Shown one piece after another: positions 4,972-38,857 of a stretch of 64,000 bases of DNA. The notes under the pieces are model-generated. The model ran no database searches, was not told the origin of the DNA, and saw only the letters and a list, made by a program, of their open reading frames with translations. The DNA comes from Calditrichota bacterium (GTDB lineage: Bacteria; Calditrichota; Calditrichia; Calditrichales; Calditrichaceae). Numbering within the stretch: position 1 is the stretch's first letter; every line of letters starts with the position of its first letter. The DNA lies in NCBI GenBank assembly GCA_024278755.1, contig JAJRSO010000046.1:1-64000 (forward strand), given 5' to 3'. The translations under genes and the position numbers were made by a program.

Positions 4972-5123
4972 TTTGCCTCCAATAAAAGCTAATTTCCCTA
5001 AACATACGCAGTCTTTAAATAAAAAGTTACAAAAGACCGCGCCTTTTTGAAATTTTTAAAAGCTGAAATCTTGTTCAAATTAAAAATAATCGTATATTAG
5101 AAAATTATTTTAAAGGAGTAGAT

Positions 5124-6292
5124 TTGAACCACACACGGCTAAGCCGCAGTCAAAAGGAAAACGCCACCGCCAATCCTATGTACCGGTATCTCACAATTTT
5201 AACCATTGCTTCCATGGCCGGCCTGCAAACCTGGCGCACCCTGTTTAATAATTTTGCCGTGGACGCCGCTTCGCTTACCGGATACCATATCGGTATTATC
5301 CAGGCCGTTCGGGAAATACCCGGATTTCTGGCCCTGCTGGCCATCTTTGTGATTCGCTTTATTCCGGAACACAAGCTGTCGGCCGTTTCTATTTTTACGC
5401 TGGGTACCGGCGTCGCTCTAACCGGTTTTTCCCTTCCTTCAGCGGTTTAATCGCTACAACCCTGGTCATGAGTTTCGGATTTCATTATTATGAAACCACA
5501 AACCAGTCCCTTACCTTGCAGTATTTTGATCAAAAAACATCGCCCTGGGTCTTCGGCAAACTGCGCAGCACCGCGGCGGCGGCGAATATTTTTACCGGCC
5601 TGCTTGTCTTTGGCGCCGCCGCCTTTTTAAACTATCAGCAGATGTTTCTTATTTTTGGAGCGGTCATCATCCTGCTGGGAAGCTGGGGGTTCTTTCAGAA
5701 TCCCGCTCAGAAACATCTGCCGGTACAGCATAAACATATGATTTTACGTAAAAAATACTGGCTTTTTTATTTTTTAACTTTTATGTCCGGCGCCCGACGG
5801 CAGATATTTGTGGCCTTTGCCGTTTTTCTGCTGGTCGAAAAATTTTCCTACAGTGTTCAGGCGGTTACCGCCCTGTTTATTTTAAACAATTTCATCAATT
5901 ATTTTTTGAGCCCGCTCATCGGAAAAGCCATCATTCGCTTTGGCGAACGAAAGGTGCTGTCTATGGAATACGGCAGCCTGATTTTTATTTTTACCGCCTA
6001 TGCCTTTGTTGATTCGGTTTATCTTGTCGGCGTTTTATACGTGCTCGATCATATCTTTTTTAATTTTTCCATCGCCATCCGCACCTATTTTCAGAAAATC
6101 GGAAGGCAAAAAGACATCGCGCCGACTATGGCCGCAAGTTTCACCATCAACCATATTGCCGCCGTGGTCATTCCGGTCCTTGGCGGACTGATGTGGGCGG
6201 CCGACTATCGGATCGTTTTCTTTGCAGGAACCGCCATGAGTTTGGTTTCGTTAGCCGCGGTACAACGAATACGGATACCTAAAACTAAATAA
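5124..6292 (+). pseudogene. MFS transporter interrupted by a single-base frameshift
   Basis: Two abutting frames together make one major-facilitator transporter of about 390 residues. The first part (5124-5450) starts at TTG behind AAGGAG. The second continues in another frame through the remaining membrane segments to 6292. The break is at the T5 run at 5426-5430. With one more T the sequence would read TGFFPSFSGLIATTLVMSFG without interruption and join the conserved FHYYET region. So this is either a real -1 deletion or a homopolymer sequencing error. The second part alone lacks the first membrane helices. The substrate is unknown. The gene stands alone between the leftward envelope operon and prc. 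Confidence 0.8.
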
Positions 6293-6454
6293 ATCTTTTT
6301 TTCAGACGAAATAAGGAAACCAAAATAAAAAATAAAAGTATGAACCGAATTAAATAGTTGTTTTTAGCGTAGAGACGTTGATATAGCGCAAACACGGGGA
6401 ATGGAATTCTTTGTATTCTGTTCGATATTCAGGGAAAAACCAGTCAGGACTATT

Positions 6455-8473: not shown

Positions 8474-8482
8474 CCCGTATCC

Positions 8483-8519
8483 ATATTTCTTCCGGGTTTT
8501 TTAAACCCGGAAGAAATAT
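8483..8519. terminator. Perfect inverted-repeat terminator between convergent prc and ogt
   Basis: ATATTTCTTCCGGGTTT is followed by a 3-base loop and its exact complement, giving a 17-bp stem. It lies 10 bases after the prc stop and just touches the ogt stop codon, so it can end transcription from both sides. The T run inside the stem and loop supplies the U-tract. Confidence 0.85.
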
Positions 8520-8986
8520 CAAACCAGCGTCACTCCCTCGTGTTGCAACAGCCATTCCTTACGCCATAGGCCACCGGCAAATCCGGTCATCTTTCCATTT
8601 TTCCCAATGACACGGTGACAGGGAATTATTATGGGAATGGGATTTTTACTGTTTGCCAGCCCTACCGCTCTTACCGCTTTAGGGTTGTTAATCGCGCTTG
8701 CAATTTCTCCGTACGACGCGGTTTTTCCAAAAGGGATTTGCCGTAAAGCCTGCCACACTTCTTTCTGAAACGGAGTCCCCTGCGGCAGCAACGGAATGGA
8801 AAACTGTTTTAAACGTCCTGCAAAATAAGCGTCCAGTTGCCGGCGGGTTTCATCCAAAATTGCGTTTGTCTGTTCCGGCCTGTTTCTTTTCTCTGCGCCA
8901 AATTTTATTTCCATGAGAAAAGTCTCCGTGCTTACCAGTTCGAGGGTCTCTACGGGTGATTCGTAAAATATTCTAAATGTTTTCAT
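8519..8986 (-). CDS. ogt: Methylated-DNA--protein-cysteine S-methyltransferase
   Basis: A 155-residue suicide repair enzyme that transfers methyl groups from O6-methylguanine or O4-methylthymine in DNA to its own cysteine. The active-site motif IIIPCHRVIG is intact (Cys acceptor), with the DNA-binding helix-turn-helix GKTASYGEIASAINNPKAVRAVG before it and the closing GFAGGLWRKEWLLQHEG. An 8-residue longer version starting at TTG (9010) is possible. ATG 8986 was chosen because it is the only ATG at the family's usual N-terminus; neither start has a clear ribosome site. It is a single gene. It lacks an Ada regulatory domain, so it should be of the Ogt type. Confidence 0.92.
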   Translation of the reverse strand: MKTFRIFYESPVETLELVSTETFLMEIKFGAEKRNRPEQTNAILDETRRQLDAYFAGRLKQFSIPLLPQGTPFQKEVWQALRQIPFGKTASYGEIASAINNPKAVRAVGLANSKNPIPIIIPCHRVIGKNGKMTGFAGGLWRKEWLLQHEGVTLV

Positions 8987-9099
8987 GGTGTCTAATTTAT
9001 GATTCTGCAAACCAATATCAACCGATTAAAAATTTTACTCCTAAAGGTATCAAACGCACCGTTTTATCATCAAAGGAATTTACATAAAAAGGAAGGCTT

Positions 9100-9561
9100 A
9101 TGAAACGCTCCAAAGAATTGGAAACCCTGTCCTGGGAACATCACGATGGATTGGTAATCGCCGCGCGCATTAAAAACGATTTAAAAAAAGAAGCGGAACC
9201 TGTCCATTTAATTCCTTATATAAGCGATATTTACACCAACTATCTGCGCCACCATTTTAAACAGGAAGAAGATAGTTTTCTAACACCAATCAAACCGTTC
9301 TCCGAAGCAGATGAATTCATTAACCGGATGCTGGACGAACATCAGCAGTTCGCCGAAATATTTGCCCGAATTGATCCGTTAGATTCCGAAGTATTTAAAC
9401 ATGTCGGTCGTTTCGGAGAATTGCTGCACGATCACATCCGCTTTGAAGAACGGCAGCTTTTCCCGGTGATTGAAAAATTACTGAGTTCAGAACAACTGAA
9501 AAAAATCGAACGCTACCTGCGCCGGGAACATAAACCCATCCCCCGGGAATGCAAAATTTAA
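9100..9561 (+). CDS. Hemerythrin HHE cation-binding domain protein
   Basis: The 153-residue cytoplasmic four-helix protein carries the iron-ligand pattern of hemerythrin-like domains: WEHHDGLV near the N-terminus, LRHHFKQEED, DEHQQF and LHDHIRFEERQLFP. Such proteins bind a di-iron centre and take part in O2/NO sensing or iron-centre protection. The AAGGAAG ribosome site lies 5-6 bases before the ATG. The broken YwiC-like gene begins 24 bases later on the same strand, so the two may be co-transcribed. The specific role is not determined by the sequence. Confidence 0.85.
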   Translation: MKRSKELETLSWEHHDGLVIAARIKNDLKKEAEPVHLIPYISDIYTNYLRHHFKQEEDSFLTPIKPFSEADEFINRMLDEHQQFAEIFARIDPLDSEVFKHVGRFGELLHDHIRFEERQLFPVIEKLLSSEQLKKIERYLRREHKPIPRECKI

Positions 9562-24073: not shown

Positions 24074-27000
24074 TTATTTCATCAAAATCATTTTGCGTAC
24101 CTGAATAAATTTTCCGGCCCGAATCTGGTAGAAATACACACCGTTAGCAAAGGCCGAGGCGTTCCAGCGTACGTTGTAAAAACCAGCCTGTTGTTTCTCA
24201 TTAACCAAAGTGGCAATCTTTTGCCCCAGAATATTAAAAATTTCCAGGTTAACTTCACTGGCAGCCTTTAACTGATAGCTGATTGTGGTACTCGGGTTAA
24301 AAGGGTTCGGATAATTCTGATTCAGTTTATACTCCTGCGGAAGCTGATCCGCCAGATAATCTTCGATACCGGTAGGATCGATTACTACGACGGTGACGGT
24401 ATCGCTGACCGCCGCCGCGCTGTCGTCCGTTACGGTACAAATGAGCTGCACCGTTCCCGAATATGCGGGAGCCGTCAAACTCAGTGTCCCGCTGTTCTGC
24501 TCATAGGCCAGATGTAAGGAGTCTTCGTCCGCAGTAAAGGTCCAGCTCAGCAGCGAATCAGGCGTATCCACATCCTGCACATAATCGAACATATGCAGCG
24601 TAATGGTCGTATCGTTGTGCATCGAAATTTCTCCCGGCAAATTCGTAATCACCGGCACGTCATTGATGGGATTTACGACAATATGAAACCAGGCGCTGTC
24701 CGAAAACTCGCCGTCGCTGACGGTCAACAGAAGCGTATCGTTTCCAAACCAGTCTGGCTGCGCTTTAAAGAGATACATTTCGGTTTTCAACGCCGCCGTT
24801 ACCTGCTTCCCGGAAAAAGCCGTGAAGAGTAAGGTTGAATCCGGGTTATCTTTGTCATCCGCATAGGGATACCAGCCGCTGACGGCATATAGCAGCGAAT
24901 CATCTTCATTGAAAGATAATTCCGGCAAAGTCGCGATAAATACCACCGAATCGTTTACGGCGCTAATCGTAAAAGCTACCGTTGTGCTGTCCGTTAATCC
25001 CGTTGTATCCGCAACGAAAAGATGTAGCGTTTCGCTTCCGTTCCAGTCTTCCGATGGCGCCGTGACGGTTAAAATGCGATCTTCGATCACCGCCATCAAT
25101 TCGCTATTTCCGGAAACCGACCATTGCAAAAGGCTGTCCGGATCGTCCACGTCATTTACAAAATCATCCAGACTAACCGGCCGAAAAGCGCTGCCTTCGG
25201 GAACCGTTTGACCGGCAATCACATCCAGCACCGGCGCGTCGTTTACGGGATTCACGGTAAATTCCGTTTCTGTACTGTCGTTTAAACCGCCCGGATCGGA
25301 TGCGGTAAAGGTGAGCGTTTCACTGCCGTTCCAGTCCGTATCGGGCGTGCTTACCGTGGCCTGATTGTTTTCATTGATGGAAACGACAAGTTCCGTATTG
25401 CCGGTTACCGTCCACGAAATTTCCGCGTCGCTGTTATCCACATCTTCCACGGACGCATTCAGATCTATCACCGTAAAACTACCCCCTTCGTCGATGGTCT
25501 GACCGGCAATTGCGCTAACAACCGGCGCGTCATTAATGGCGTTTACGGTAAATACGGCCGCATCACTGTCAAAACTGCCGGAGGTATCCGTCGCCGTAAA
25601 GATAATTTCTTCGCTGCCGTTCCAGTTGGCGTCAGGTGCGGTGACCGTTACCAGATGCTGCGCGCTAATTTCAACGGAAAGGCTGGTGGTACCCGTGTAA
25701 GCCCAGGTTAAAGTGCTGTCGGCGTCGTCCACATCGGCAACCAGCGTATCGAGATCAAATACGGCAAAACTCTGCCCCTCTGAAATACTTTGATCCGCAA
25801 TATCGGAAACAACCGGCGCGTCGTTTACCGCATTCACCGTAAAAACAGCCGATGTGTTATCGGATAGGCTGCCCGGATCCGTAGCGGTAAAGGTGAGCGT
25901 TTCACTGCCATTCCAGTCCGTATCGGGTGTGCTTACCGTGGCCTGATTGTTTTCATCGATGGAAACGACAAGTTCCGTATTCCCGGTTACCGTCCAGGTG
26001 ATTTCCGCGTCACTGTTATCCACATCTTCCACGGACGCATTCAGGTCAATCACCGTAAAACTGCCCCCTTCGTCGATGGTTTGTCCTGCAATAGCGCTAA
26101 CCACCGGCGCATCGTTGACATTGGTTACGGTAAATACCGCCGCGTCGCCGTCACTTAATCCACCGGGGTCGGTGGCCGTAAAGGTAATTTCTTCGCTTCC
26201 AAACCAATCTACATCGGGGGTGGTAATGGTCGCAACCCGGTTTTCATCAATGGAAACCGCAAGTTCCGAATTGCCGCTAAAGGTCCAGCTCATTTCCGCA
26301 GCGCTGTTATCCACGTCCGTTACATAATCATCCAGAGTGATAGTGACAAAGGTCTGTCCTTCGTCAATCGTTTGGTCGGCAATCCCGGCTACAGCCGGCG
26401 CGTCATTGACGGCGTTCACTGTTACTGTAACCGTTGCCGAAGCCGTTCCGCCGTTTCCGTCGCTGATATTATATGTAAAGCTGTCCTCTCCGCTCCAGTT
26501 TTCGTCCGGCGTATAAACCACCAGCGTATCGTTGCCGATGTTTGCCGTTCCGTGCGCAGCCGTTGAAACACTGGTAACGGTCAATGCGTCGTTCTCAATA
26601 TCAGAGTCATTATTCAGTACATAAATGGTGGCCGCCGTATCCTCGTTTGTGGAAGCGGAATCATCTGCCGCCACCGGAGCGTCATTGATATTGTTAACCG
26701 TAAATACCGCCGCGTCGCCGTCACTTAATCCGTCGGGGTCGGTGGCCGTAAAGGTAATTTCTTCGCTGCCAAACCAATCCGCGTCGGGTACAACGACCGA
26801 AGCCGTATGGTTGGGATCGATGCTAACAATTAAGTCGCTGTTCCCGCTGTAAGTCCAGGTCATTTCCGCCGCGCTATTGTCCACATCCGTTACATAGTCA
26901 TCCAGATCAATGGTAACAAAGGTCTGGCCTTCGTCGATGGTTTGATCGGCAATGTCCGAAACCACAGGCGCGTCGTTTACCGACGTTACGGTAAATTTAG

Positions 27001-28966
27001 CGGGGTCGCTGTCTTCCAGTCCGCCGGGATCTTTTACAGTGAACGTAATGGTTTCGGAGCCATACCAGTTTGTATCCGGGATAGATACGGTGGCTACGCG
27101 GTTTTCATCAATGGTTACCGTCAGCGCGCTGCTGCCGCTTGATGTCCAGTTCAGATCCGATTCCACATTGTCGATATCATTCACATAATCATCCAGATTG
27201 ATTTGGACAAAGCTCCCGCCCTCATCCACCGTTTGATCCGGAATATCCGAAATCACCGGCGCATCGTTGATATTGTTAACCGTAAATACCGCCGCATCGC
27301 TGCCGGAGAGTCCGCCGGGATCGCTGCCGATGAAAGTAATCGTTTCCGAACCGTACCAGTTAGTATCGGGGATGGAAATAGTTGCCACACGGTTTTCGAT
27401 GGAAACGCTCAGCTGCGTGTTCCCGCTGTACTGCCACGTTATATCCGCATCCGGGCTTTCTTCATCAGTTACATAGTTATCTAAGTTGACGGTCGCAAAG
27501 GTTTCTCCTTCGTTGATTGTCTGATCGGGAATACCGCTAACCACCGGCGCATCGTTTACCGCCGTAACGGTTAACGTGTAGGTTTGAGTGTCCGTCGCAT
27601 TGTTTAAATCCGCAACCTGTACGGTAACCGTATGCGGACCGGCTTCCGCATCGGTGGTGGCTCTGCCGGTGATTTCACCAGTGGAAGTATTTATCGATAA
27701 AAAAGCAGGCGCTTCCATGAGTGACCAGGTCAGCACTTCGGCCGAATCGGTGTCCACCGCTTCAGCCTGATAGGAATAATCCTGATCTTCGGTTGTTCCC
27801 GTAACCGGTACGGAAGTAATTTCCGGCGCCGTGTTGATATATTCGTACGGGCCTATATCGGCATCATCCGTACCATCCCTGTCCCCGTCAAAAGGCCGGG
27901 CGTTTCCGTCAAAGTCATCCACCGGCGCATCGCCTGTGCTTCCGGCATCTACCAGCGGCGACGTGGCGCCAAAATGGAAATTATTATTATCGATATCAAA
28001 AAACTGCGGGTCTTCATCAATATTGCCTGTTCCGGAATATCCGCCGTAGATGTCGGAATAAGTAATATTGGCTACGCCAGATATTTCGTTATCGATATTT
28101 GCGGTATTATATCCAATTATCGAATTTATAATATTGGCAATGGTTAGCGCACTATACAGATAAACGCCGCCGCCGTTTCCGTTAGGCGCCTCATTGTTTG
28201 CAATAAGACAGTTATTCATATTTAATACGGCGCCGGAAAAAAGGGCCACACCGCCGCCGCCTTGTCCGATCGTCGTATTGTTCCGGATAATGGAATTACC
28301 GATTCCGGGGTTAGCAAAAACCGATGGCGAAGGGCCGTTTAAACTAAGGCCGCCGCCGTATTGATCGGCAGAGTTGGAATAGATCTGACAAGCATTGACC
28401 AGTGGGCTGCCGGCAAAGGCCATACCGCCGCCGCCTTCTATAGCATGGTTATTCCGAATAGTACAATGGCTTACCATTGTCGTATTGCGAATATTCGCTC
28501 CGAAAAAGATACCGCCGCCATTTTTTAATTCTGTCGGTATGCTTAAACCGGTGCCGTCCGCATCGGCGCCTTCTACCAGGCAATAGGATAATTGATTCGC
28601 ATACGTAGAATCCTCCGAAAGCAGTTTAATACCACCCCACTCCGAAGCGCTTCCGGCGGCGTCATCGATAATAAATTTTATCGAATCTATGTCCGTTCCC
28701 GCCGCTATCAACGTTCCTCGCACAACCATTCGGATATCATCGTGAAATTTTACAATCACACCCGGTTCAATGGTCAATACGGCGCCGTCCGCCACTACCA
28801 GTGAATCCGTGTTCAGATCAATGATATAAACGCCGTCGCCCGAACTGTTATTTTTTTGCCAGGTGGTATTGCCGGTAATCAGCGAATCTGTCCAAACATC
28901 CGCCGAAACGGATACCGCAAAAACAAATAGCAGCATGCTCAGTATGGTAATATTTTTGATTTTCAT
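24074..28966 (-). CDS. Giant secreted protein: beta-helix, eleven cadherin-like modules, type IX sorting domain
   Basis: The 1630-residue protein has a signal peptide (ITILSMLLFVFAVSVSA) and a right-handed beta-helix (~residues 30-330) closed by a choice-of-anchor Q segment (SPLVDAGSTG, DIGPYEY). An Ig/cadherin-type domain (~380-470) comes next, then eleven tandem ~96-residue modules, most starting NDAPVVS.I.DQTI.EG with D-x-N/D calcium-type motifs. The C-terminus (YKLNQNYPNPFNPSTTISY to MILMK) is a type IX sorting domain. It is probably a calcium-stiffened surface fibre or adhesin. GGGAG precedes the ATG. Modules 6 and 8 are almost identical in DNA, a sign of recent duplication. Confidence 0.88.
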   Translation of the reverse strand: MKIKNITILSMLLFVFAVSVSADVWTDSLITGNTTWQKNNSSGDGVYIIDLNTDSLVVADGAVLTIEPGVIVKFHDDIRMVVRGTLIAAGTDIDSIKFIIDDAAGSASEWGGIKLLSEDSTYANQLSYCLVEGADADGTGLSIPTELKNGGGIFFGANIRNTTMVSHCTIRNNHAIEGGGGMAFAGSPLVNACQIYSNSADQYGGGLSLNGPSPSVFANPGIGNSIIRNNTTIGQGGGGVALFSGAVLNMNNCLIANNEAPNGNGGGVYLYSALTIANIINSIIGYNTANIDNEISGVANITYSDIYGGYSGTGNIDEDPQFFDIDNNNFHFGATSPLVDAGSTGDAPVDDFDGNARPFDGDRDGTDDADIGPYEYINTAPEITSVPVTGTTEDQDYSYQAEAVDTDSAEVLTWSLMEAPAFLSINTSTGEITGRATTDAEAGPHTVTVQVADLNNATDTQTYTLTVTAVNDAPVVSGIPDQTINEGETFATVNLDNYVTDEESPDADITWQYSGNTQLSVSIENRVATISIPDTNWYGSETITFIGSDPGGLSGSDAAVFTVNNINDAPVISDIPDQTVDEGGSFVQINLDDYVNDIDNVESDLNWTSSGSSALTVTIDENRVATVSIPDTNWYGSETITFTVKDPGGLEDSDPAKFTVTSVNDAPVVSDIADQTIDEGQTFVTIDLDDYVTDVDNSAAEMTWTYSGNSDLIVSIDPNHTASVVVPDADWFGSEEITFTATDPDGLSDGDAAVFTVNNINDAPVAADDSASTNEDTAATIYVLNNDSDIENDALTVTSVSTAAHGTANIGNDTLVVYTPDENWSGEDSFTYNISDGNGGTASATVTVTVNAVNDAPAVAGIADQTIDEGQTFVTITLDDYVTDVDNSAAEMSWTFSGNSELAVSIDENRVATITTPDVDWFGSEEITFTATDPGGLSDGDAAVFTVTNVNDAPVVSAIAGQTIDEGGSFTVIDLNASVEDVDNSDAEITWTVTGNTELVVSIDENNQATVSTPDTDWNGSETLTFTATDPGSLSDNTSAVFTVNAVNDAPVVSDIADQSISEGQSFAVFDLDTLVADVDDADSTLTWAYTGTTSLSVEISAQHLVTVTAPDANWNGSEEIIFTATDTSGSFDSDAAVFTVNAINDAPVVSAIAGQTIDEGGSFTVIDLNASVEDVDNSDAEISWTVTGNTELVVSINENNQATVSTPDTDWNGSETLTFTASDPGGLNDSTETEFTVNPVNDAPVLDVIAGQTVPEGSAFRPVSLDDFVNDVDDPDSLLQWSVSGNSELMAVIEDRILTVTAPSEDWNGSETLHLFVADTTGLTDSTTVAFTISAVNDSVVFIATLPELSFNEDDSLLYAVSGWYPYADDKDNPDSTLLFTAFSGKQVTAALKTEMYLFKAQPDWFGNDTLLLTVSDGEFSDSAWFHIVVNPINDVPVITNLPGEISMHNDTTITLHMFDYVQDVDTPDSLLSWTFTADEDSLHLAYEQNSGTLSLTAPAYSGTVQLICTVTDDSAAAVSDTVTVVVIDPTGIEDYLADQLPQEYKLNQNYPNPFNPSTTISYQLKAASEVNLEIFNILGQKIATLVNEKQQAGFYNVRWNASAFANGVYFYQIRAGKFIQVRKMILMK

Positions 28967-29083
28967 TTCATACTCCCTGTTTTATAAATAGTCCTGTTTG
29001 CTAATTGTTCTTTTTATCGGCAAAGGAGCAGAGAATATGAATTTTTTAAAAGGAAAAGTTCGAAAATAAATCAGCTTGTTATG

Positions 29084-29116
29084 ATAAAAAAAAGACCTGC
29101 ACAAGTGGCAGGCCTT
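29084..29116 (-). terminator. Terminator after the OB-fold-like type IX protein gene
   Basis: On the minus strand CCTGC, a 7-base loop and GCAGG form the core of a hairpin with GC-rich arms, followed by T8. It lies about 30 bases after the stop codon at 29146. Confidence 0.75.
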
Positions 29117-29145
29117 AAATAAGTTATGGTCATAAAAAATTACGC

Positions 29146-30939
29146 TTAACGCATCAATACCATTTTACGAACCTGTACCGAAGAACCGTTTATAAGCTTA
29201 TAGTAATAAATGCCGCTGGCCAGGCCGGAAGCGTCAAATGAAACCGCGTGTTTTCCCGCCGCCTGCATTCCATTTACAAGGATCTGCACTTTCTGCCCCA
29301 GCGCATTATAAACGGTAAGTTTTACATAATCTGTACTTGGTATTTCGTAATTAATATTTGTTGTCGGATTAAAGGGATTCGGATAGTTTTGATTTAATAA
29401 AAACGCTTCGGGCGTTGCATCCGGCCGATCGTCGATACCGGTTAACCCACCGAGATCCTTCATAAAGCGGGGACGAATATAATAGCCCCAATCGGCAGGA
29501 GCGCCGTACGCAATTTGATCCACAATACCCACGAGACGAAAACTGTTTGCCGGCGGTGTGATACCGTCCAAATCCGTATCCTGATCCAGAATCAGGTTCA
29601 ATGTGTCCGAAACATCGCTTACCTGCACCTGAGCGCTGTATACGCCTTCTACCGGCCAGAGCTCCGGATTTAAGATCGATACGTCCTCAATGGAAACCAG
29701 CATACCTTCGTATTCTTCCGCAATATCGTTTATGGTCAGAGCCAGCGTATCCACAGAGTTGCCTTCACTAAAAACCAGAACAGCATCGGCCGATTCCGGC
29801 AAAAGCCGGGTCATACCATTCGCCTGCTGTACAATCCCCTGCACAAACACACTGTCGCCGATATTTAAATCGATTGTAAAATTTTGATTTGTCAGACGCA
29901 TTCCGCCCATCCCGCTCTGAATAAAATAATCGGTACGGGAATCGAAATTAGGCGAATTTATAACGCCTTTCACATAAATCTTTTCGTTAAGCAGGTCGGG
30001 AATATAATTATGGTCGGCATCCACCCGGGCGCCTTCGACCGAGTAAATCATCGGATGCGTATAGGCAACCGATATCCGACCGGACGTTCCCGCATCGCAG
30101 GAAGCCGAAACCGCGTATAGATAACTACTGTCGCCGGGCGCCTGTGTATCGGTAAACGAATGCGCGCCGTCCACTACCTCGCCAATCTGTTCCATATCTA
30201 CTTCTGACACACCGCGAAAAACACGAAAGGTGTCCGGCTGAGCCGAGGCATTTACCAGTTGTTTTCCGTTACCGAGATTAATCCATAAATCCAGTATATA
30301 ATTAGTGGTATTATTCCCGCCAATGGCATTCGACTGCGAGTAATGTTCATCTTCCACCAAAGCGGTTGTATTGAAATCATATAAGTAGTAATTGATATTA
30401 TAAACGTAATCCGAATTATCACTCATTAATGCCGGGAAACTATAATTTTTATCAACGACGGGGACGATGGTTAAACCTTCGATAAAAACACCCACGCGGG
30501 CCGGAGCAGGAACGGAACCAAGGGCAACGCCCACTTCGAAGCGGGGTGTTTCATTTGCATCTCCGGCAACGAGGCTGTCGATTTCGGTAATTTTTACGCC
30601 GGTTGTCATATCATAAATATGAATATTGTAAAGAGATGGGCCGGCTACCAGACCCCGGCTGAAATGGGCAAAATCAATTTCTTCCAACGTTGCGCCCGAA
30701 AACGCGCTAAGATCAAAAGCAACTCCCAAAGCCTGCTTTTCGATAGGCGACCAGATGCCGGAAGGATAGCTGTTGTTATAAGAAATTACCGAATCGGGAA
30801 GAGAATACTCCCAGGATATTTGTGCGCCGTTATACACCGTTTGTGCCTGAACATTTTGCGGCGGATGGCATACGGTTTCGGTTTTAGCAAAAAGAAAACT
30901 CACCAAACCCAATGCTATAATCAATCCTGTTATTTTCAT
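29146..30939 (-). CDS. Secreted protein with OB-fold-like region and type IX sorting domain
   Basis: The 597-residue product starts with a signal peptide (KITGLIIALGLVSFLFA). Residues ~25-290 form fibronectin/jelly-roll-like beta domains (QNVQAQTVYNGAQISWEY, DTFRVFRGVSEVDMEQIGEV). Residues ~320-480 resemble the DUF5689/OB-fold regions of secreted nucleases (VYVKGVI-type strand IYVKGVINSPNF, SVFVQGIVQQANGMTRLLP, YEGMLVSIEDVSI). The end (FLLNQNYPNPFNPTTNINY to MVLMR) is a type IX sorting domain. No nuclease catalytic motif is visible, so binding rather than catalysis is likely. AGGAG precedes the ATG. It is a separate unit upstream of the giant protein gene. Confidence 0.8.
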   Translation of the reverse strand: MKITGLIIALGLVSFLFAKTETVCHPPQNVQAQTVYNGAQISWEYSLPDSVISYNNSYPSGIWSPIEKQALGVAFDLSAFSGATLEEIDFAHFSRGLVAGPSLYNIHIYDMTTGVKITEIDSLVAGDANETPRFEVGVALGSVPAPARVGVFIEGLTIVPVVDKNYSFPALMSDNSDYVYNINYYLYDFNTTALVEDEHYSQSNAIGGNNTTNYILDLWINLGNGKQLVNASAQPDTFRVFRGVSEVDMEQIGEVVDGAHSFTDTQAPGDSSYLYAVSASCDAGTSGRISVAYTHPMIYSVEGARVDADHNYIPDLLNEKIYVKGVINSPNFDSRTDYFIQSGMGGMRLTNQNFTIDLNIGDSVFVQGIVQQANGMTRLLPESADAVLVFSEGNSVDTLALTINDIAEEYEGMLVSIEDVSILNPELWPVEGVYSAQVQVSDVSDTLNLILDQDTDLDGITPPANSFRLVGIVDQIAYGAPADWGYYIRPRFMKDLGGLTGIDDRPDATPEAFLLNQNYPNPFNPTTNINYEIPSTDYVKLTVYNALGQKVQILVNGMQAAGKHAVSFDASGLASGIYYYKLINGSSVQVRKMVLMR

Positions 30940-31149: not shown

Positions 31150-32493
31150 ATGTTAAAAAAAATAGTTTTTATTTCAGATAGACTGCACGAATTTCAGGCT
31201 TTCTTTAAAACCCGGAATTCATTTGAACTGGGAATTGATCTGTTAAATCATTCCGAAGCAAATCAGCGTAGCATTTTTCGGAATTATTACGAACTGTTTA
31301 TTGTAGATATACAGGAGCAATGGCTGGCGATTCCCCAATGGATTCGGGAACAGGCACAGCAACTGTATTTTCATCAGTTTATATTTATTTCCAACAAAAC
31401 GGTAAATCCCATTTTGCCGGACCTGCTGGGCCGGCGTTTCTTTAAGGTCGTTGATTTTAAAACGGCTTCCGAAGATTTAAAATCTGTAGTTGACGAAGCG
31501 AAACAGTTTTTCGAAGAGCACCAGTACAGCTTTGACCAAACACAATTTCTCACCGAAGCGCCCTTCGAAGGATTACTGGGAAGCCAGCCTTCCATTAAAC
31601 GCATCAATGATTTTATTAAACTGGTAAGCCGGGCGCGCTATGCGCCATGCCTGATTAGCGGTGAAGAGGGCAGCGGCAAAGAGCTTTGTGCAGGACTAAT
31701 CCACCGGGCTAACGATTTACACGACGATTTATTGTTTGTAAAGAAATGTGAAAAAGCTACAACAAATGATTTGCTGGCCGATCTGTTTGGCGTGGACGAC
31801 GAAAGCGGTATTTACGGTCCCGTGCGCAAAGGCCTGCTCGAAATATACTCCGGGGGAACAATCATTCTTAAAAATATCGAAAAAATTCCGCCCGAGGTTC
31901 AGGAGAAACTACTGCTTTACTTAGAAGAAAAAGCTTTTCGGCCGTTGGGAGCAAACCGTATCATTGAGGCCAATACGCGGATTATCGCGCTTTGTGAGCA
32001 TAACCTGGAGTGGTTTGTGAAATATCAGAATTTCAATTCCGATTTATACTTCCATTTAAATGCCTTCGAAATTTCTTTACCGCCCCTGCGCGAACGCGGT
32101 GACGATGTGCTCTTGCTCTCTTCGTATTATCTGCAATCGGCCTGCCAGCTGACCGGTAAAACCATACACGGAATTTCACTGCCTGCTCAGCGCCTGCTAA
32201 AAAAATACTTTTGGCCGGGCAATATTAAAGAGCTGAAAAACCTGATTGAAGAAACTGTGATAAAGTGCAAGTCCGGTGAAATCGGCATTCAAGACCTGCC
32301 ACAGTATCTAAACAACGGCAAAGCGTCAGCGCCCGGGAGCACCCATCTTGGAAACTGCTCCCTAAAAGAGATGGAACGGATCCATATCGAACAGGTTTTA
32401 GTAAATACCGAAGGTAATAAATCCAAAGCCGCCGCACTGCTGGAAATATCCCGAACGACCCTGCGTGAAAAAATCAAACAATACGAACTATAA
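31150..32493 (+). CDS. Sigma-54-activator-like AAA+ protein lacking GAFTGA and Walker B acidic residues
   Basis: The 447-residue protein has an N-terminal receiver-like region (~1-125, without the usual phospho-Asp context) and an AAA+ core with Walker A GEEGSGKE (~175). A C-terminal Fis-type helix-turn-helix follows (NKSKAAALLEISRTTLREKI). In canonical activators the sigma-54 contact loop is GAFTGA and Walker B is GGTLFLDE; here these read SGIYGP and GGTIILKN. So it is unlikely to hydrolyse ATP for sigma-54 activation and may act as a DNA-binding scaffold or a conventional repressor. No clear ribosome site; the start is in an A-rich stretch. It converges with the NikR operon's last gene. Confidence 0.82.
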   Translation: MLKKIVFISDRLHEFQAFFKTRNSFELGIDLLNHSEANQRSIFRNYYELFIVDIQEQWLAIPQWIREQAQQLYFHQFIFISNKTVNPILPDLLGRRFFKVVDFKTASEDLKSVVDEAKQFFEEHQYSFDQTQFLTEAPFEGLLGSQPSIKRINDFIKLVSRARYAPCLISGEEGSGKELCAGLIHRANDLHDDLLFVKKCEKATTNDLLADLFGVDDESGIYGPVRKGLLEIYSGGTIILKNIEKIPPEVQEKLLLYLEEKAFRPLGANRIIEANTRIIALCEHNLEWFVKYQNFNSDLYFHLNAFEISLPPLRERGDDVLLLSSYYLQSACQLTGKTIHGISLPAQRLLKKYFWPGNIKELKNLIEETVIKCKSGEIGIQDLPQYLNNGKASAPGSTHLGNCSLKEMERIHIEQVLVNTEGNKSKAAALLEISRTTLREKIKQYEL

Positions 32494-32507: not shown

Positions 32508-33101
32508 TTATTCTTTCCGGGCAACTATCAGATATAACTCTTTTTCTTCACGGCACGTTAATACGGAAAACCGTCGGCTTTGCAGCATCTCCGCTAAAGC
32601 GGATACTTCCGGTAGGCGATCGCCGGCCACGGCCTGTCCGGCCTCGCGATGCAACGCATTAAGCTGTACATGATCCATCAGATGCATAATAATCCAGAGA
32701 CCATTTAAAACCAAAACACGATGAACTTCCGTAATCACCCGGAACGGCTGACTGAAATGCGGAAACGACTGAAAACAGACAACCGTTTTGTACTGTGCAG
32801 GGCGAAGAGGCAATGCGTGTGCATCGGCCTGTAACAGATTCGGTTTGCGCTGTGCATATTTTTCTTTTACCCGGTGTACCATCCCAAAAGAAACATCCAG
32901 TTCCGTCATGTGTATATTCCCGGGAAGAACACTATGCAGGATACCGCTTCCACACCCTAAATCTAACAACGGATTTAATCTTTCGGAAGAATACTCTCTA
33001 AAAACGGCACGCATTTGCTCCTGTTTTTCCGGACAGGCATGATAATCCCAATCAGGCGCCTTATCATCAAAAAAATTCCGCGTAATTCGTAAATCACTCA
33101 T
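32508..33101 (-). CDS. Class I SAM-dependent methyltransferase, last gene of the NikR operon
   Basis: The 197-residue enzyme has the Rossmann SAM-binding signature LLDLGCGSGILHSVL (motif I), the acidic motif II in HMTELDVSFGMV, and PLRPAQYKTVVCFQSF as motif IV. The N-terminal DDKAPDWD resembles UbiE/methyltransferase-11 proteins. The substrate is unknown. The start overlaps the ECF S-component gene by 8 bases, so it belongs to the transport operon. It may modify an imported metal ligand or a corrinoid/porphinoid; that is inference. Confidence 0.85.
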   Translation of the reverse strand: MSDLRITRNFFDDKAPDWDYHACPEKQEQMRAVFREYSSERLNPLLDLGCGSGILHSVLPGNIHMTELDVSFGMVHRVKEKYAQRKPNLLQADAHALPLRPAQYKTVVCFQSFPHFSQPFRVITEVHRVLVLNGLWIIMHLMDHVQLNALHREAGQAVAGDRLPEVSALAEMLQSRRFSVLTCREEKELYLIVARKE

Positions 33102-33615
33102 CTGTATGTTCCGGAAATCGTTTTAAAATATGCGAAATGAATTGAGGAATTACTACCATTTGCAGGGCGATTCCCGGTAAACCGCTTAAAACAAGAGCGA
33201 TAGAAAACATCGGATGGGTTAACCCAAAAAGCGGAGCTATCACCATAACCAGAACAAACAAGAGCAGCCGGTCCCATAAAATGCCAAGTATAAGCGCCAA
33301 CCAAAGCGCTTTTTTGCGATGAAAATGCAGAAAAGAAATGAGTAACGCCGTGCTGCCCAGTTCGGCCAACATAATGGGGAGTACCGGCGGAACCATTGGC
33401 GGCATGCCGGTAAAAAGCCAGGAGATAAGCGGGCTGCTAAAACCCAGCACTAAGGCAAATTTCCAGCTTAACACCATGGCTCCGGCAAACACGGGTAAAA
33501 ACATGGGCAAAAAAGCAGCGCCAAGACCAAACAAATGAAAAAACTGTGGAAACAACACAGCCGTCGTTATAAAAAAAGCCGTTATTGGAATCTGTCTTAA
33601 TTCCTTTTCAGACAT
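33094..33615 (-). CDS. ECF transporter S component (substrate-binding membrane subunit)
   Basis: The 173-residue membrane protein has six predicted helices. The pattern ITTAVLFPQFFHLFGLGAAF-LPMFLPVFAGAM and FTGMPPMVPPVLPIMLAELG is typical of generic ECF S components. It is not a CbiM/NikM protein: it lacks the N-terminal Met-His metal loop of those metal-binding subunits. With the T and A subunits in the same operon it should complete an energy-coupling-factor importer whose ligand is probably a small organic or chelated metal compound. GGGAG precedes the ATG. It overlaps the methyltransferase gene. Confidence 0.78.
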   Translation of the reverse strand: MSEKELRQIPITAFFITTAVLFPQFFHLFGLGAAFLPMFLPVFAGAMVLSWKFALVLGFSSPLISWLFTGMPPMVPPVLPIMLAELGSTALLISFLHFHRKKALWLALILGILWDRLLLFVLVMVIAPLFGLTHPMFSIALVLSGLPGIALQMVVIPQFISHILKRFPEHTDE

Positions 33616-33729
33616 TTAACACTCCCGTATGCATACAAAATCTTCTGTTGATAGCGCTTCCGGAGTTTCCCGTTTTATAGCAGTAAACCTGCCCATATTA
33701 TTGTAAACTTAACCGGATATCATTATTTA

Positions 33730-35580
33730 TTAATAGTTAAAACGCAATCCAAACCGCATCTGACGGCCCGGCGCCGGATATCCCGGCAACACTTCGTACC
33801 TGCGATCTAAAATATTCAGCACTTTAAGATAGAGGTTCAGATTATTGCTTCCCAGACGAACCGTTCCGCTTACCACATTGTAATCCGACAGCGGCTGCTG
33901 ATTGTTATTTGCTGCGTACAACTCGTGAATGAACTTTCCATACAAAAAAACACCAACCATCGATTTGGTGTAGGCAAACATATATTTAACCTGCTGTCGC
34001 GGATTAAAAGCCGTCAGTTGATCTGCTTCTAAAAAAGCATAGCTCAACTGAATATAAGCCGGATTTATAAAACGATAACGAATTTGCGTTTCCCAGCCCC
34101 ACTGATTGGCGTTACCGCTGTTTAAAAATTTCATTACAGGTGTAGGCGGATTAATTTGTACTGCCTGGATAATGTTTTCAATTTGATTGTAAAAAGCCGC
34201 TACACGCCAGGAAAGACGACCAAACCAGGTATATTCCATCCCGCTTTCGTAGTTATTTACATTTTCATTTTTCAAATCGGAGTTCGCCGACGGAAACAGA
34301 TAGAGTTCCATCAGGGTAGGCGTACGAAAACCGTTGCCGTAGGAAGCATACAGTTTAAACTGCGGATAAGGCCTTAGTGCTATACCAAACATTGGTGAAA
34401 TTGTGGAAAGAGCCAGCGTATTATACTGGTAACGTATTCCTCCTTTCAGGTGCAGCATTCGAAATGGAGTATAAAATCCAACGACATAACCTCCGAAAGA
34501 ATCCATTTGATGTAAATCGGTATTTACAACAGGCTTGCCATTGGGTAAAAAAGCAAATCTGTTTTTAGCCTTTCCCCCGAATCGCATTACATCAATTCCG
34601 CCGGCAAACTGCATTTTTTCGTTAAAAATAAAATGCTGATAGCTCGATAAACCATACGTAAAATCATTGGCCTGAAAACCGTCGTAAAATTCATGCCTTC
34701 CGAAATTTGTATAAAACTGAGTAGAGCCGGTTAACCGGGAGTCTTTGTTGGCTAAAATAAGTTCGCCGGTACCACGGCGGATTTTACCGAAACGGTGGAT
34801 ACCAAGTTTATCGGTTTCACCACGACTGGGATCATCAAACGAATAGGGTACATAGCGACCTTGCAATGAAAGATTCCAGTTTGCATTTATCTGATACTGC
34901 CATCCCGCCTGATAATGCCGTGATTTAAAATCCGTCTGTTTTATATGCCCGTCGGACTGTTTTAAACTGTATGTGGCAAAAAAACCGCTTTTATTCCATT
35001 GCCGGGCCACACTCATATCCAGACGTTGTGTATTAAAACTGCCGATTTCTATATTTGTTTTAAATGTTTGCCGATAAAGTGGCAGGGTCGTCAGATTAAC
35101 CACTCCGCCCATCGCATGGCTGCCGAAGATGGTGGATGAAGCGCCCGTCAGCACTTCGGCCTGGTAAATATCACTGTTGCCGTACACATCCGGCAGCGGA
35201 TGCCCGAAAATACCCATCACATCGGGATGCCCGTTTAGCAGAACCAGAACACCGGTATTGGGCTGTCCGCCCAAACCACGCAGATTTAACGCGCCGGCGC
35301 CCGCCGTACCCACACCGTAACCCATCACCTTTTTATCCAGTACATAGGCAGAAGGGCTCATTAAATCAACCGCTTCCAAAACGGAGTGACTGCTCATGAC
35401 TTCCAAAATTTTTCCTGGAATAATTTGATAACTATCAGCTGAATTTTTTAAAGACGCACTATAACGGTTGGCTATAATTACAATTGAATCTTGTGAATTA
35501 TAGACCTTTAGCGAATCCATCGCATGATTGGACGCAAAGGTAAACGAAAACATCATAAGTAAAATAAAAAAGCTGCGCAT
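33730..35580 (-). CDS. TonB-dependent outer-membrane receptor of the NikR operon
   Basis: The 616-residue protein has a signal peptide (SFFILLMMFSFTFA), a plug domain (residues ~35-150, GALNLRGLGGQPNTGVLVLL-NGHP and AEVLTGASSTIFGSHAMGGVVNL) and a 22-strand-type barrel ending in RFGLRFNY. It resembles vitamin B12/siderophore receptors (BtuB/CirA-like). The operon contains NikR, ECF T and A subunits and an S subunit, so its cargo may be nickel- or cobalt-chelate or a corrinoid. It starts 125 bases after the ATPase gene, with a hairpin between them that may tune expression. Confidence 0.88.
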   Translation of the reverse strand: MRSFFILLMMFSFTFASNHAMDSLKVYNSQDSIVIIANRYSASLKNSADSYQIIPGKILEVMSSHSVLEAVDLMSPSAYVLDKKVMGYGVGTAGAGALNLRGLGGQPNTGVLVLLNGHPDVMGIFGHPLPDVYGNSDIYQAEVLTGASSTIFGSHAMGGVVNLTTLPLYRQTFKTNIEIGSFNTQRLDMSVARQWNKSGFFATYSLKQSDGHIKQTDFKSRHYQAGWQYQINANWNLSLQGRYVPYSFDDPSRGETDKLGIHRFGKIRRGTGELILANKDSRLTGSTQFYTNFGRHEFYDGFQANDFTYGLSSYQHFIFNEKMQFAGGIDVMRFGGKAKNRFAFLPNGKPVVNTDLHQMDSFGGYVVGFYTPFRMLHLKGGIRYQYNTLALSTISPMFGIALRPYPQFKLYASYGNGFRTPTLMELYLFPSANSDLKNENVNNYESGMEYTWFGRLSWRVAAFYNQIENIIQAVQINPPTPVMKFLNSGNANQWGWETQIRYRFINPAYIQLSYAFLEADQLTAFNPRQQVKYMFAYTKSMVGVFLYGKFIHELYAANNNQQPLSDYNVVSGTVRLGSNNLNLYLKVLNILDRRYEVLPGYPAPGRQMRFGLRFNY

Positions 35581-35665
35581 ATAAACCTCTCTTTGTTAAT
35601 GAATGAACGTTCCCGCCGCAAACAGCAGGCATCCAAATAAACTTGAATCGGATTTTTAGTCCAAA

Positions 35666-35691
35666 ACCCGGAGAATAGACTACATCCGGGT
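35666..35691 (-). terminator. Hairpin between ATPase and TonB-receptor genes (attenuator or weak terminator)
   Basis: ACCCGGA, a 12-base loop and TCCGGGT form a 7-bp stem on the minus strand, followed by TTTTGG. It lies about 14 bases after the ATPase stop. The T-run is short, so partial termination is more likely than a full stop. Confidence 0.4.
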
Positions 35692-35704
35692 AGAATTAAA
35701 TTAT

Positions 35705-36439
35705 TTAAACCTGGAACCTTAAAGGCAATTCCAGCTGGTTCTGCAAAAGCAGGGTTTTATTCTTTAAAATGGTATCTGGTTGTCCGTCCGCCACCACCAT
35801 CCCCTTATTTAACAGTATTATTCGGGTACAGGTATCCCATAAAAAATCCAAATCATGAGAAGTTACAACAATGGTCTGACGGCTGATATTCATCCAGTCG
35901 ATTAATTTTCGACGATGAAAGGCATCGAGATTGCCGGAAGGTTCGTCCAGGGCAATGAGTTCCGGTTTCATGGCCAAAACCCCGGCAATGGCGATGAGTT
36001 TCTTTTGGCCGAAACTTATATGGATCGTAGAACTATTGTATAGTTCACGACTGTTTAATATTTGCAACGCTTCATTCACGCGCTGTTCCACTTCACTCTC
36101 TTCCAACCCCTGATTTCGGGGTCCAAAAGCCACATCGTCAAACACTTCCGTCATAAAAAGCTGATCATCGGGATTCTGAAAAACCAGCCCCGCCAAACGG
36201 CGAATTTCTTTAATATTCTTTTTATCCGAAACCGCTTTCCCAAATATTTCCAGATGCCCTTCGGGAAGCCGCAGCCCGTTAAGCAAGGTTAATAAAGTGG
36301 ATTTCCCCGCACCGTTAGGGCCGATAATCCCCACCTTTTCTCCCTCCATTATTCTTAAATCCAGCCGTTCCAAAGCAAGCGTTCCCGCAGGATAACGAAA
36401 CGATACGGCCTCCGCCTCAATTGCTACATTATACGCCAT
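35705..36439 (-). CDS. ECF transporter ATPase (CbiO/NikO type)
   Basis: The ~244-residue ATPase has Walker A GPNGAGKST, Q-loop VFQNPDDQLFM, a variant signature ISFGQKK (usual LSGGQ), Walker B ELIALDEPSGNLD and the switch His in VVTSHDLDFL. It drives import together with the T subunit. ATG 36439 overlaps the T-subunit end by 16 bases; a longer version starting at 36499 would only add hydrophobic residues read in the other gene's region. The FGQKK variant occurs in CbiO-like proteins, so activity is likely retained. Confidence 0.9.
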   Translation of the reverse strand: MAYNVAIEAEAVSFRYPAGTLALERLDLRIMEGEKVGIIGPNGAGKSTLLTLLNGLRLPEGHLEIFGKAVSDKKNIKEIRRLAGLVFQNPDDQLFMTEVFDDVAFGPRNQGLEESEVEQRVNEALQILNSRELYNSSTIHISFGQKKLIAIAGVLAMKPELIALDEPSGNLDAFHRRKLIDWMNISRQTIVVTSHDLDFLWDTCTRIILLNKGMVVADGQPDTILKNKTLLLQNQLELPLRFQV

Positions 36440-37176
36440 AACCAGAAACCCGCCGTTAATAAAACCGTACACAAAAAAAATATCGTATCTGCAAAACACC
36501 AGTTCAGTTTATACACAATCGGAAAACGGCCTGTAAATCCCCGGCTGACCATTGCTTCGCTACTACGTCCGGAGCGTTCCCATACGCGAAGAAGATACAT
36601 CAGTAAAAAATTGCCCGCCGCATGCCGCGAAGCGGCTCTTCTCAAACGCAGATTCCGGGCCCGCAAGGCAAGCTTTACCCGTATGGCTTCCAGATTAAAA
36701 ACCTGTAACATACGTTGCAGATAAAAATATATTGCGATAGCCCAGTGCGGCGTTCGCCAGTTATTCAGGAGGGCGATAATTTGTTTATATGACAATGAAC
36801 GGCTAAGTGCAAAAGAGATGTTTAGTAAAAAGAACGCTTTAAAATGTACCGCTAAAAACTGCCAGAGCCCCTCGCGGTAGAGTGTAAACGGCCCCACCTG
36901 ACCAAAAATTTCAAAACCGCCTAATTTTTGGAAAGGCAAATGAAACGTAATGAATAAAAGCATAGGATAAACACGTAAAATATCTTTAAATATAAAAATT
37001 AACTGCGCCCTCGCTAAACTCCATAAAACGATCAGTAAAAGCAGATAGTAAAGTCGATCCGCTTTTTCCAGCGGCTGTAAATACAAAACCGAAACGGCCG
37101 TTAGCACCCCTGCAAAAAACTGTGCCCGCGGGTCAAACTTATTTAATCGAAATATTGTTTCTCTATTCAAATTCAT
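36424..37176 (-). CDS. ECF transporter T component (CbiQ/NikQ type)
   Basis: The 250-residue transmembrane coupling protein has five to six membrane helices and the two short Arg motifs that contact the ATPases (ALRAR near residue 168 and MVSRGF near 208). These motifs are the hallmark of CbiQ/EcfT proteins. It lies 16 bases after nikR and overlaps the ATPase gene. The T subunit normally works with one or two ATPases; only one is encoded here. Confidence 0.88.
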   Translation of the reverse strand: MNLNRETIFRLNKFDPRAQFFAGVLTAVSVLYLQPLEKADRLYYLLLLIVLWSLARAQLIFIFKDILRVYPMLLFITFHLPFQKLGGFEIFGQVGPFTLYREGLWQFLAVHFKAFFLLNISFALSRSLSYKQIIALLNNWRTPHWAIAIYFYLQRMLQVFNLEAIRVKLALRARNLRLRRAASRHAAGNFLLMYLLRVWERSGRSSEAMVSRGFTGRFPIVYKLNWCFADTIFFLCTVLLTAGFWLWRIM

Positions 37177-37192
37177 CCCGGAATTCCAATCG

Positions 37193-37612
37193 TCAGTCCA
37201 AACCTTTTCCGTCCGAAGTAAGATAGAGTTTTCCGTGCTTAACTCCCTTTTCTGCCAGCATACGGTCGGCCGTTTTCCGTATCAGTGCGGGCGTTCCTTT
37301 TATAACTATCACTTCCAAACAGTTAACATGATCCAAATGGACATGCATGGACGAAATAATGTGCTCGTGATGGGCATGCTGTATTTCCGTCAGTTTCTCC
37401 GTTAATTCACGTTTAGAATGATCGTATAAAATATGTAAAACACCCAGAACCACTTCATTTACCTCAATCTCCTCTTCTACCAGCGCACGTCGAATTAAAT
37501 CCCGGATGGCTTCGGAGCGGTTGCCGTAGCCCCTTGCTTCGATATGAGCATCAAAACGTTCCATCAGTTTACCCGGTAAAGACATTCCGAAACGAACCAT
37601 AGATTCAGACAT
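37193..37612 (-). CDS. nikR: Nickel-responsive transcriptional regulator NikR
   Basis: The 139-residue repressor has an N-terminal ribbon-helix-helix DNA-binding domain (MVRFGMSLPGKLMERFD, YGNRSEAIRDLIRRAL). The C-terminal ACT-like nickel domain holds the ligands in HHEHIISSMHVHLDHVNCLEV, giving the classical His, His, His and Cys square-planar site. It should bind nickel and repress the following uptake genes. A palindrome fitting a NikR operator lies 14 bases before the ATG. First gene of the nikR-T-A-TonB-S-methyltransferase operon. Confidence 0.93.
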   Translation of the reverse strand: MSESMVRFGMSLPGKLMERFDAHIEARGYGNRSEAIRDLIRRALVEEEIEVNEVVLGVLHILYDHSKRELTEKLTEIQHAHHEHIISSMHVHLDHVNCLEVIVIKGTPALIRKTADRMLAEKGVKHGKLYLTSDGKGLD

Positions 37613-37625
37613 ATTTCAAGTCTCC

Positions 37626-37652
37626 GTGTTACTTTTCTAACAATAGTAACAC
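37626..37652. promoter_or_regulatory. NikR operator palindrome
   Basis: GTGTTAC-N13-GTAACAC is an exact 7-bp inverted repeat, 14 bases upstream of nikR. I recall that candidate NikR sites in some deltaproteobacteria have this same half-site and spacing; E. coli uses a different GTATGA/TCATAC pair with 16-base spacing. The position just upstream of nikR makes autoregulation and nickel control of the operon likely. Confidence 0.8.
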
Positions 37653-37722: not shown

Positions 37723-37768
37723 TTGACTTTATTTTTTACATTTCCTATTTTTGGTGTACTCTGGTACA
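37723..37768 (+). promoter_or_regulatory. lexA promoter with candidate LexA box
   Basis: TTGACT (37723-37728) and TATTTT (37746-37751) are spaced by 17 bases, a good sigma-70-type promoter. TGTAC-TCTG-GTACA (37755-37768) sits directly downstream at the start-site region, where a bound repressor would block transcription. A half-site TGTACA occurs upstream at 37712-37717. The same box type precedes the DUF6504 gene. Cyanobacterial LexA boxes (RGTAC-N4-GTWC) are similar in layout. Confidence 0.7.
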
Positions 37769-37783
37769 TTTAAAGGAATAAAA

Positions 37784-38398
37784 ATGAAAACCCTTACCGA
37801 CCGTCAAAAAGAGTTATTGCAGTTAATAGCCCGCAATATCGAAGAAAAAGGCTATCCGCCATCTTACCAGGAATTGGCAAATTCCATGAATATTAAATCC
37901 AAATTTGCTATTCTAAAACATATCGACGCCTTGGTGAGCAAAGGATATCTGGAAAAGGATTCTTCTGCCCGCGGCCTGCGTATCATTGCCTCCGATTATG
38001 CGCCGGGCAATAAAAATGAAATCAACGTTCCGCTCATCGGCCGGGTCGCCGCCGGATTTCCCATTTTGGCTCAGGAAAATGTAGAACGCTACATTCCCAT
38101 CCCCCGGGCCATGATAAAAGCCGAGGGCCGTTATTTTGCCTTAAAAGTTCGTGGCGACAGTATGATCAATGCCGGTATTTTTGAAGAAGACCTCGTCGTT
38201 GTCAATTCTACCAATGCCGCCCATAACAAAGAGATTGTTGTTGCCCTGATTGGGGATGAAGTAACCGTTAAACGTTTAATCCGCTCTAACGGCAAGATTT
38301 ACTTAAAAGCAGAAAATCCCGCCTACGATGATATTTATCCGGAGAGTGAATGGTCTATTCAGGGTAAAGTCGTGGGGCTGATTCGTGAGATTAATTAA
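37784..38398 (+). CDS. lexA: LexA repressor (SOS regulator)
   Basis: The 204-residue protein has an N-terminal winged helix (TDRQKELLQLIARNIEEKGYPPSYQELANSM region, residues ~1-65) and the S24 peptidase domain. The self-cleavage site is AAGF (VAAGFP, ~residue 90), the catalytic Ser is in RGDSMIN and the Lys in VTVKRLI. It represses SOS genes and is cleaved on contact with RecA filaments. ATG 37784 behind AAAGGAAT is chosen; an upstream GTG would add residues that overlap the operator. The candidate operator directly before it suggests autoregulation. Confidence 0.95.
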   Translation: MKTLTDRQKELLQLIARNIEEKGYPPSYQELANSMNIKSKFAILKHIDALVSKGYLEKDSSARGLRIIASDYAPGNKNEINVPLIGRVAAGFPILAQENVERYIPIPRAMIKAEGRYFALKVRGDSMINAGIFEEDLVVVNSTNAAHNKEIVVALIGDEVTVKRLIRSNGKIYLKAENPAYDDIYPESEWSIQGKVVGLIREIN

Positions 38399-38410
38399 CA
38401 CCTGGCTGAT

Positions 38411-38857
38411 ATGAAAAACAAACCATCCAACCCTATTTTTTATAATGAAAAAACGACGGTAGGAACCAGTGAGTTTTATAGTATCCCGTTGATGGGAGAA
38501 GTTCATATAGAAAATGAATTTGGCTCAGGAGGAAATTATTCCTTAGGAGAATTGATTAAAAACGTTCGCCAAAAGGATTTACGCTCCATTACCCTGCGCA
38601 CCATGGACAACGGCCTGGCCGGAGACGGTATTTATTTCGGGGATTTCCTGACGGTCGATTTAACATCAAAACCCGTTAATGGCGGTATTGCCGCTATAAA
38701 ATTAGGTAGTAAAATTTATATCCGTAAAATATTTTTCGAACACAATTTTATCCGGTTGGAAACAACCGATCCCACCAATTCTCCATTAATTGTCGATCCT
38801 CAAACACCCGGTTTTGAGATTATCGGCCGGGTACATACGGTTATTCGGGAATTATAA
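38411..38857 (+). CDS. LexA C-terminal-like protein without cleavage site and catalytic dyad
   Basis: The 148-residue protein resembles the LexA/UmuD S24 domain (YSIPLMGEV, ITLRTMDNGLAGDGI, GFEIIGRVHTVIREL). The key residues are changed: the Ala-Gly cleavage pair is absent (GEVHIENEF), the GDSM region reads MDNGL (no Ser), and VKRL is IRKI in the Lys strand. It lacks a DNA-binding domain. It begins 12 bases after lexA, so it is co-expressed with it. It may form non-cleavable heterodimers with LexA or act as an adaptor; this is inference. Confidence 0.8.
   Translation: MKNKPSNPIFYNEKTTVGTSEFYSIPLMGEVHIENEFGSGGNYSLGELIKNVRQKDLRSITLRTMDNGLAGDGIYFGDFLTVDLTSKPVNGGIAAIKLGSKIYIRKIFFEHNFIRLETTDPTNSPLIVDPQTPGFEIIGRVHTVIREL

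Follow-up and report, generated by a model that had tools for sequence, protein, structure and literature searches.

Six consecutive genes on the minus strand (37612-32508) of the window, i.e., the whole 64-kb stretch of Calditrichota DNA that was analyzed (contig JAJRSO010000046.1), probably encode a NikR-repressed importer of chelated nickel together with a methyltransferase (MT) acting on the imported ligand. These genes encode, in order, the nickel-responsive repressor NikR, the T component and the ATPase (A component) of an energy-coupling factor (ECF) transporter, a TonB-dependent outer-membrane receptor, an ECF S component and the MT; their order, as given in a preliminary description of this DNA, was confirmed, and so were their families, by Pfam domains. 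A role of this module in nickel metabolism is well supported at the sequence level by the operator, the gene linkage and the co-occurrence of the genes, and the presence of a receptor and a vitamin-type S component suggests that the substrate would be a nickel chelate rather than the free ion.

The predicted NikR operator (37626..37652, minus strand) was an exact GTGTTAC-N13-GTAACAC palindrome. As described earlier, it preceded nikR, although the spacing to the nikR ATG was 13 bases and not 14; it occurred in a single exact copy in the window and was found in none of 100 shuffled sequences. The palindrome was identical to the consensus published for NikR sites of deltaproteobacteria, GTGTTAC-[N13/14]-GTAACAC (PMC545781), and this identity points to binding by NikR and supports the NikR control proposed previously. 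The product of nikR (37193..37612, minus strand) contained the RHH_1 (PF01402) and NikR_C (PF08753, 1.2e-30) domains, both above the cut-off, and scored 178.8 bits against the NCBIfam model NF003381 (cut-off 105). Its nearest PDB entry was 2bj1 (8e-40), and the His/His/His/Cys pattern of nickel ligands was conserved in the alignment with 2bj1 and E. coli 1q5v. Membership in this family suggests that repression of the operon is nickel-responsive. The reading frames of the A and T genes overlapped by 16 bp (A from its ATG), and those of the MT and S genes by 8 bp; the gaps from A to the receptor gene and from the latter to S were 124 and 114 bp, respectively, and contained no second exact NikR box. 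Matches to sigma-70 promoters around the operon were no better than expected by chance, and terminator-like matches were mainly intragenic.

The T component (36424..37176, minus strand) belonged to the CbiQ family (PF02361, 4.6e-13), with a score under the CbiQ equivalog cut-off, and the A component (35705..36439, minus strand, ATG start; PF00005, 5.4e-26) had ECF_ATPase_2 and ECF_ATPase_1 as its top NCBIfam models. The S, T and ATPase components are encoded together, as in an ECF transporter. The receptor (33730..35580, minus strand) contained a TonB-dependent barrel (PF00593, 1e-29) and a Plug domain (PF07715, 1.5e-9), both over the cut-off.

The S component (33094..33615, minus strand) matched PF12822 (ECF_trnsprt; 2.3e-9, 37.9 bits, cut-off 30.7) and reached no NCBIfam S family; a match to PF01891 (CbiM/NikM) was found neither in this protein nor anywhere in the source genome, and neither single nor profile queries revealed a PDB relative by sequence. 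Its AlphaFold model, built from 39 sequences, had a mean pLDDT of 93, and the Foldseek matches of this model (TM 0.58-0.73) were TmRibU (0.73), BioY (0.70-0.71), ThiT and FolT, with NikM and CbiM absent among the significant matches listed. Judged from its family and modelled fold, the S protein is a vitamin-type ECF component and, as had been suggested earlier, not NikM; such a fold suits an organic or metal-organic ligand. The residues invariant in the 39 sequences included F25, H26, G29, L30, G31, F34, L35, P36, M37, F38 and P40, as well as G69, M70 and P71, which correspond to the motifs FH-x2-GLG-x2-FLPMF-x-P and TGMPP; only one His was invariant, the remaining invariant possible ligands being Met and one Glu.

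The distribution of the S family was studied in 40 genomes of the phylum, which were searched for S, NikR, NikM and [NiFe] hydrogenase, and in a wider search, in which the single window S query gave no matches and an alignment query of genome contigs gave 75 loci, most of them from metagenome assemblies. Within the phylum, S was found in 15 and NikR in 14 of the 40 genomes: both were present in 12 genomes, S only in 3, NikR only in 2 and neither in 23, so that NikR accompanied S in 12/15 S-positive versus 2/25 S-negative genomes (Fisher p = 6e-6, kinship being ignored). The preliminary description had proposed a genome search for the same gene order, and this search found nikR-T-A-TonB-S-MT whole in nine Calditrichota genomes, including the source genome and counting locus L027, where an apparent S-MT fusion was rejected as an artefact of an overlapping open reading frame (ORF) in the wrong frame that hid the S and MT frames. 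In genome G022, T-A-S-MT lay downstream of a NikR box with one mismatch. Genome G039 contained TonB-S-MT with its own one-mismatch box and no adjacent nikR, which was located elsewhere with NikM, T and A; S thus had no adjoining T/A there (L131, G039:C1:1010000-1021000, with L030), a hint that two S components may share one energising module.

The 75 S loci belonged to Calditrichota, KSB1, Ignavibacteria, Bacteroidota, Aminicenantes, Acidobacteriota, Spirochaetota, Bacillota and others. S and MT occurred together in Calditrichota, KSB1, Ignavibacteria/Bacteroidota, Aminicenantes, Acidobacteriota and Spirochaetota, and NikR/TonB/S/MT sets were found at loci of KSB1, Ignavibacteria/Bacteroidota, Aminicenantes and Acidobacteriota. 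The MT was present in 58 of the 75 loci, and the S-MT gap did not exceed 50 bp in 51 of these 58, including L076, where the MT was located just before S. NikR was found in 38 of 49 further genomes, namely, in all 36 with the MT beside S versus 2 of the 13 without a visible MT (again with kinship ignored); in these two, L109 and L126, the MT was not seen and the locus was cut, respectively. The 11 genomes lacking NikR were 10 Bacillota, whose S was of the LPMH type, and one Bacteroidota (L064). Scanning of gene starts for NikR boxes with up to two mismatches revealed boxes in 31 of the 75 loci, compared with 0-3 for each of 30 scrambled palindromes used as a control. In Spirochaetota the MT still adjoined S, without a nearby TonB receptor or nikR gene, in the order S-MT-A, where MT and A are separated by a predicted membrane gene; nikR was present elsewhere in those genomes. 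On the S tree, the MT label was strongly clustered, yet five changes were needed, and the 'no MT' row L084 ended at a contig edge. Taken together, these gene sets support the module as one functional unit whose genes travel together across phyla.

The S relatives of Bacillota (L105:7001-7940, L120:6950-7907, L082 and L113) carried LPMH in place of LPMF and were followed, in the loci read, by a small protein, which was DUF1893/TM1506 (Pfam) in L105 and L120. They resembled the window S family in homology and in the GLG-like/LPM and TGMPP motifs, but differed from it in that the MT was not adjacent and nikR was absent from the genomes.

NikM was found in 5 of the 40 phylum genomes, the source genome not being among them, and in 3 of the 49 further genomes (two strong matches and one weak partial match). 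NiCoT (PF03824) was likewise absent from the source genome. Matches to the large subunit of [NiFe] hydrogenase were detected in 37 of the 40 phylum genomes, and that of the source genome was full-length. Since NikM and NiCoT are absent and [NiFe] hydrogenase is present, the predicted module is, among the families searched, the one importer dedicated to nickel that was detected in the source genome.

The MT (32508..33101, minus strand; PF08241, Methyltransf_11, 2.7e-17) had the class I S-adenosylmethionine-dependent (Rossmann-type) fold with a DxGxGxG motif, and its AlphaFold model had a pLDDT of 95. Its assignment as a DVU_1556 family methyltransferase was not supported (54.4 bits, below the equivalog cut-off of 155). 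F11, W18, D47, G49, G51, G53, M74, H115, H140 and H151 were invariant in an alignment of 42 sequences. In the model, H115 followed beta-4, H140 was at the end of beta-5 and H151 was in the next helix, a placement that would put all three on the usual substrate side of the class I fold. The best-scoring PDB relatives were phosphoethanolamine methyltransferases, in whose structures H140 and H151 had no His counterpart.

According to the proposed mechanism, at ample nickel Ni-NikR would bind the palindrome before nikR and repress the operon, nikR itself included. At scarce nickel, the TonB receptor would import a complex of nickel and chelator through the outer membrane, and S, powered by T and A, would move the complex (or the ligand with the metal) over the inner membrane; the ECF components known for heme and cobalamin indicate that transporters of this type can carry metal complexes. 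The co-transcribed MT would then modify the imported ligand in the cytoplasm. As the MT stays with S even where an adjacent TonB gene and nikR are lacking (Spirochaetota), its substrate would most simply be this ligand. What the MT does is the most conjectural step: most likely it methylates the chelator and weakens its grip on nickel, which would thereby be freed for [NiFe] hydrogenase, and such release is favoured with moderate confidence over recycling or building of the ligand. It is also conceivable, although doubtful, that the module represents a new class of metal importer in which the three-histidine site of the MT takes the nickel while methylating, and thus disarming, the chelator; nickel would then be freed via methylation and not via reduction or hydrolysis.

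Several observations weigh against import of a chelate coupled to its methylation. Family models placed the MT only as a generic Methyltransf_11 protein, and the counterpart of H115 in the phosphoethanolamine methyltransferases, which are ordinary members of the family, was also a His, located in their second domain. A recognisable NikR box was present in under half of the S loci, and none was recognised before S in the four Spirochaetota loci. T and A were not beside S in many KSB1 loci, and the Bacteroidota locus L064 (3603-7531) consisted of T-A-TonB-S with both MT and NikR missing, indicating that neither of them has to accompany the transporter. Genes for chelator biosynthesis were not found linked to the module, and the co-occurrence statistics treat the genomes without regard to kinship.

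The adjacency of MT and S would fit equally well if the MT were biosynthetic, making or finishing a secreted nickelophore or modifying a common chelator, with the transporter recovering the loaded form. Tailoring methyltransferases occur in some metallophore pathways, which lends this scheme some plausibility, and shared operon membership and regulation would suit it; however, among the loci read, no further gene for biosynthesis or export was seen repeatedly, and Spirochaetota keep the S-MT-A arrangement without an adjacent TonB receptor, so that we consider it unlikely. Somewhat less likely still is a plain Ni2+ importer, in which the unusual S replaces NikM and binds Ni2+ directly, the MT having an unrelated nickel-responsive job. 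NikR control, the lack of NikM in most genomes with the S family and the existence of nickel-regulated TonB receptors in Helicobacter agree with such an importer, but one invariant His with Met and a single Glu is a poor match for it, the fold of S resembles vitamin S components and not NikM/CbiM, and the MT is too closely tied to S (58 loci).

The preliminary description had named either a chelated nickel compound or a corrinoid as the substrate; the former remains plausible, and little speaks for the latter or for another cobalt compound. The receptor is remotely BtuB-like and the S fold is vitamin-type. Nevertheless, identification of the receptor as BtuB was rejected, as the models gave 93.6 and 86 bits against equivalog cut-offs of 836 and 599.7 bits, respectively; neither the window nor any of 11 tested S loci contained an RNA element, and hence a cobalamin riboswitch, in an Rfam scan; the module is marked by NikR boxes; and the relative Caldithrix abyssi has its own, separate riboswitch-controlled cobalamin system. 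A corrinoid is therefore very improbable. Import of chelated nickel with action of the MT on the ligand is the reading that we prefer.

Compared with NikMNQO/CbiMNQO systems, the window operon shares the CbiQ-type T, the CbiO-type A and a deltaproteobacterial-type NikR operator in front, whereas its S belongs to PF12822 and not PF01891, NikN is absent, and the TonB receptor and MT are additional. The Helicobacter NikR regulon (FecA3, FrpB proteins, ExbBD-TonB) is similar in its NikR-repressed TonB-dependent outer-membrane receptors, but its inner-membrane step is NixA or an ABC system instead of an ECF transporter, and we know of no methyltransferase linked to it. LhaSTA (heme) and CbrT/BtuM (cobalamin) are similar in that ECF S components carry a metal-organic complex; their cargo, however, contains iron or cobalt, respectively, their S families share little sequence with each other, and to our knowledge they have no link to NikR or a methyltransferase.

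The earlier description of NikMNQO or NikABCDE systems as the known targets of NikR was incomplete, as NikR of H. pylori represses TonB-dependent receptors, a hydrogenase target was predicted for deltaproteobacterial NikR (PMC545781), and a C. abyssi locus is also known. The C. abyssi genome paper, in its accessible part, described two loci with NikR boxes and TonB receptors, both assigned to nikMNQO, and already proposed NikR control and nickel; that part names nikR, two transporter genes and the receptor, and not S or MT (PMC5317091). By gene order, the first of these loci appears to be nikR-T-A-TonB of genome G001. A second exact NikR palindrome (3586-3613) was observed in G001 (L127) before another TonB receptor, with a carboxypeptidase-regulatory-like N-domain, followed by NikM, T and A genes (set spanning 3469-9186); thus, two receptor-importer sets marked by NikR are present in a single genome. 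The module is therefore known in part, from the NikR-regulated TonB receptors of Helicobacter and from nikR-T-A-TonB of C. abyssi, with its NikMNQO annotation. The non-NikM S, the MT partnership and the breadth of distribution were not found described in a non-exhaustive literature search, which covered some sources in part.

The operon is flanked by a divergent lexA gene (37751 on) and a convergent gene for a sigma-54 activator (31150-32493). By eye, a shorter second ORF resembling a LexA/UmuD peptidase follows lexA (37751-38857), and the region 24074-30939 contains two long minus-strand genes for secreted proteins with C-terminal YPNPFNP-type sorting motifs, similar to type IX secretion cargo, the bigger of which has many cadherin-like repeats.

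NikM, which usually serves as the nickel subunit of ECF systems, is missing from the majority of the genomes of Calditrichota, KSB1 and Aminicenantes that were searched, and the NikR-marked, MT-linked module would fill this gap. The results provide a lead to the function of an unnamed ECF S family and of a methyltransferase that is generic in databases, and since C. abyssi is cultivated, the module is open to direct genetic and biochemical testing. The prediction is that mostly uncultured bacteria of Calditrichota, KSB1 and Aminicenantes may scavenge a nickel chelate.

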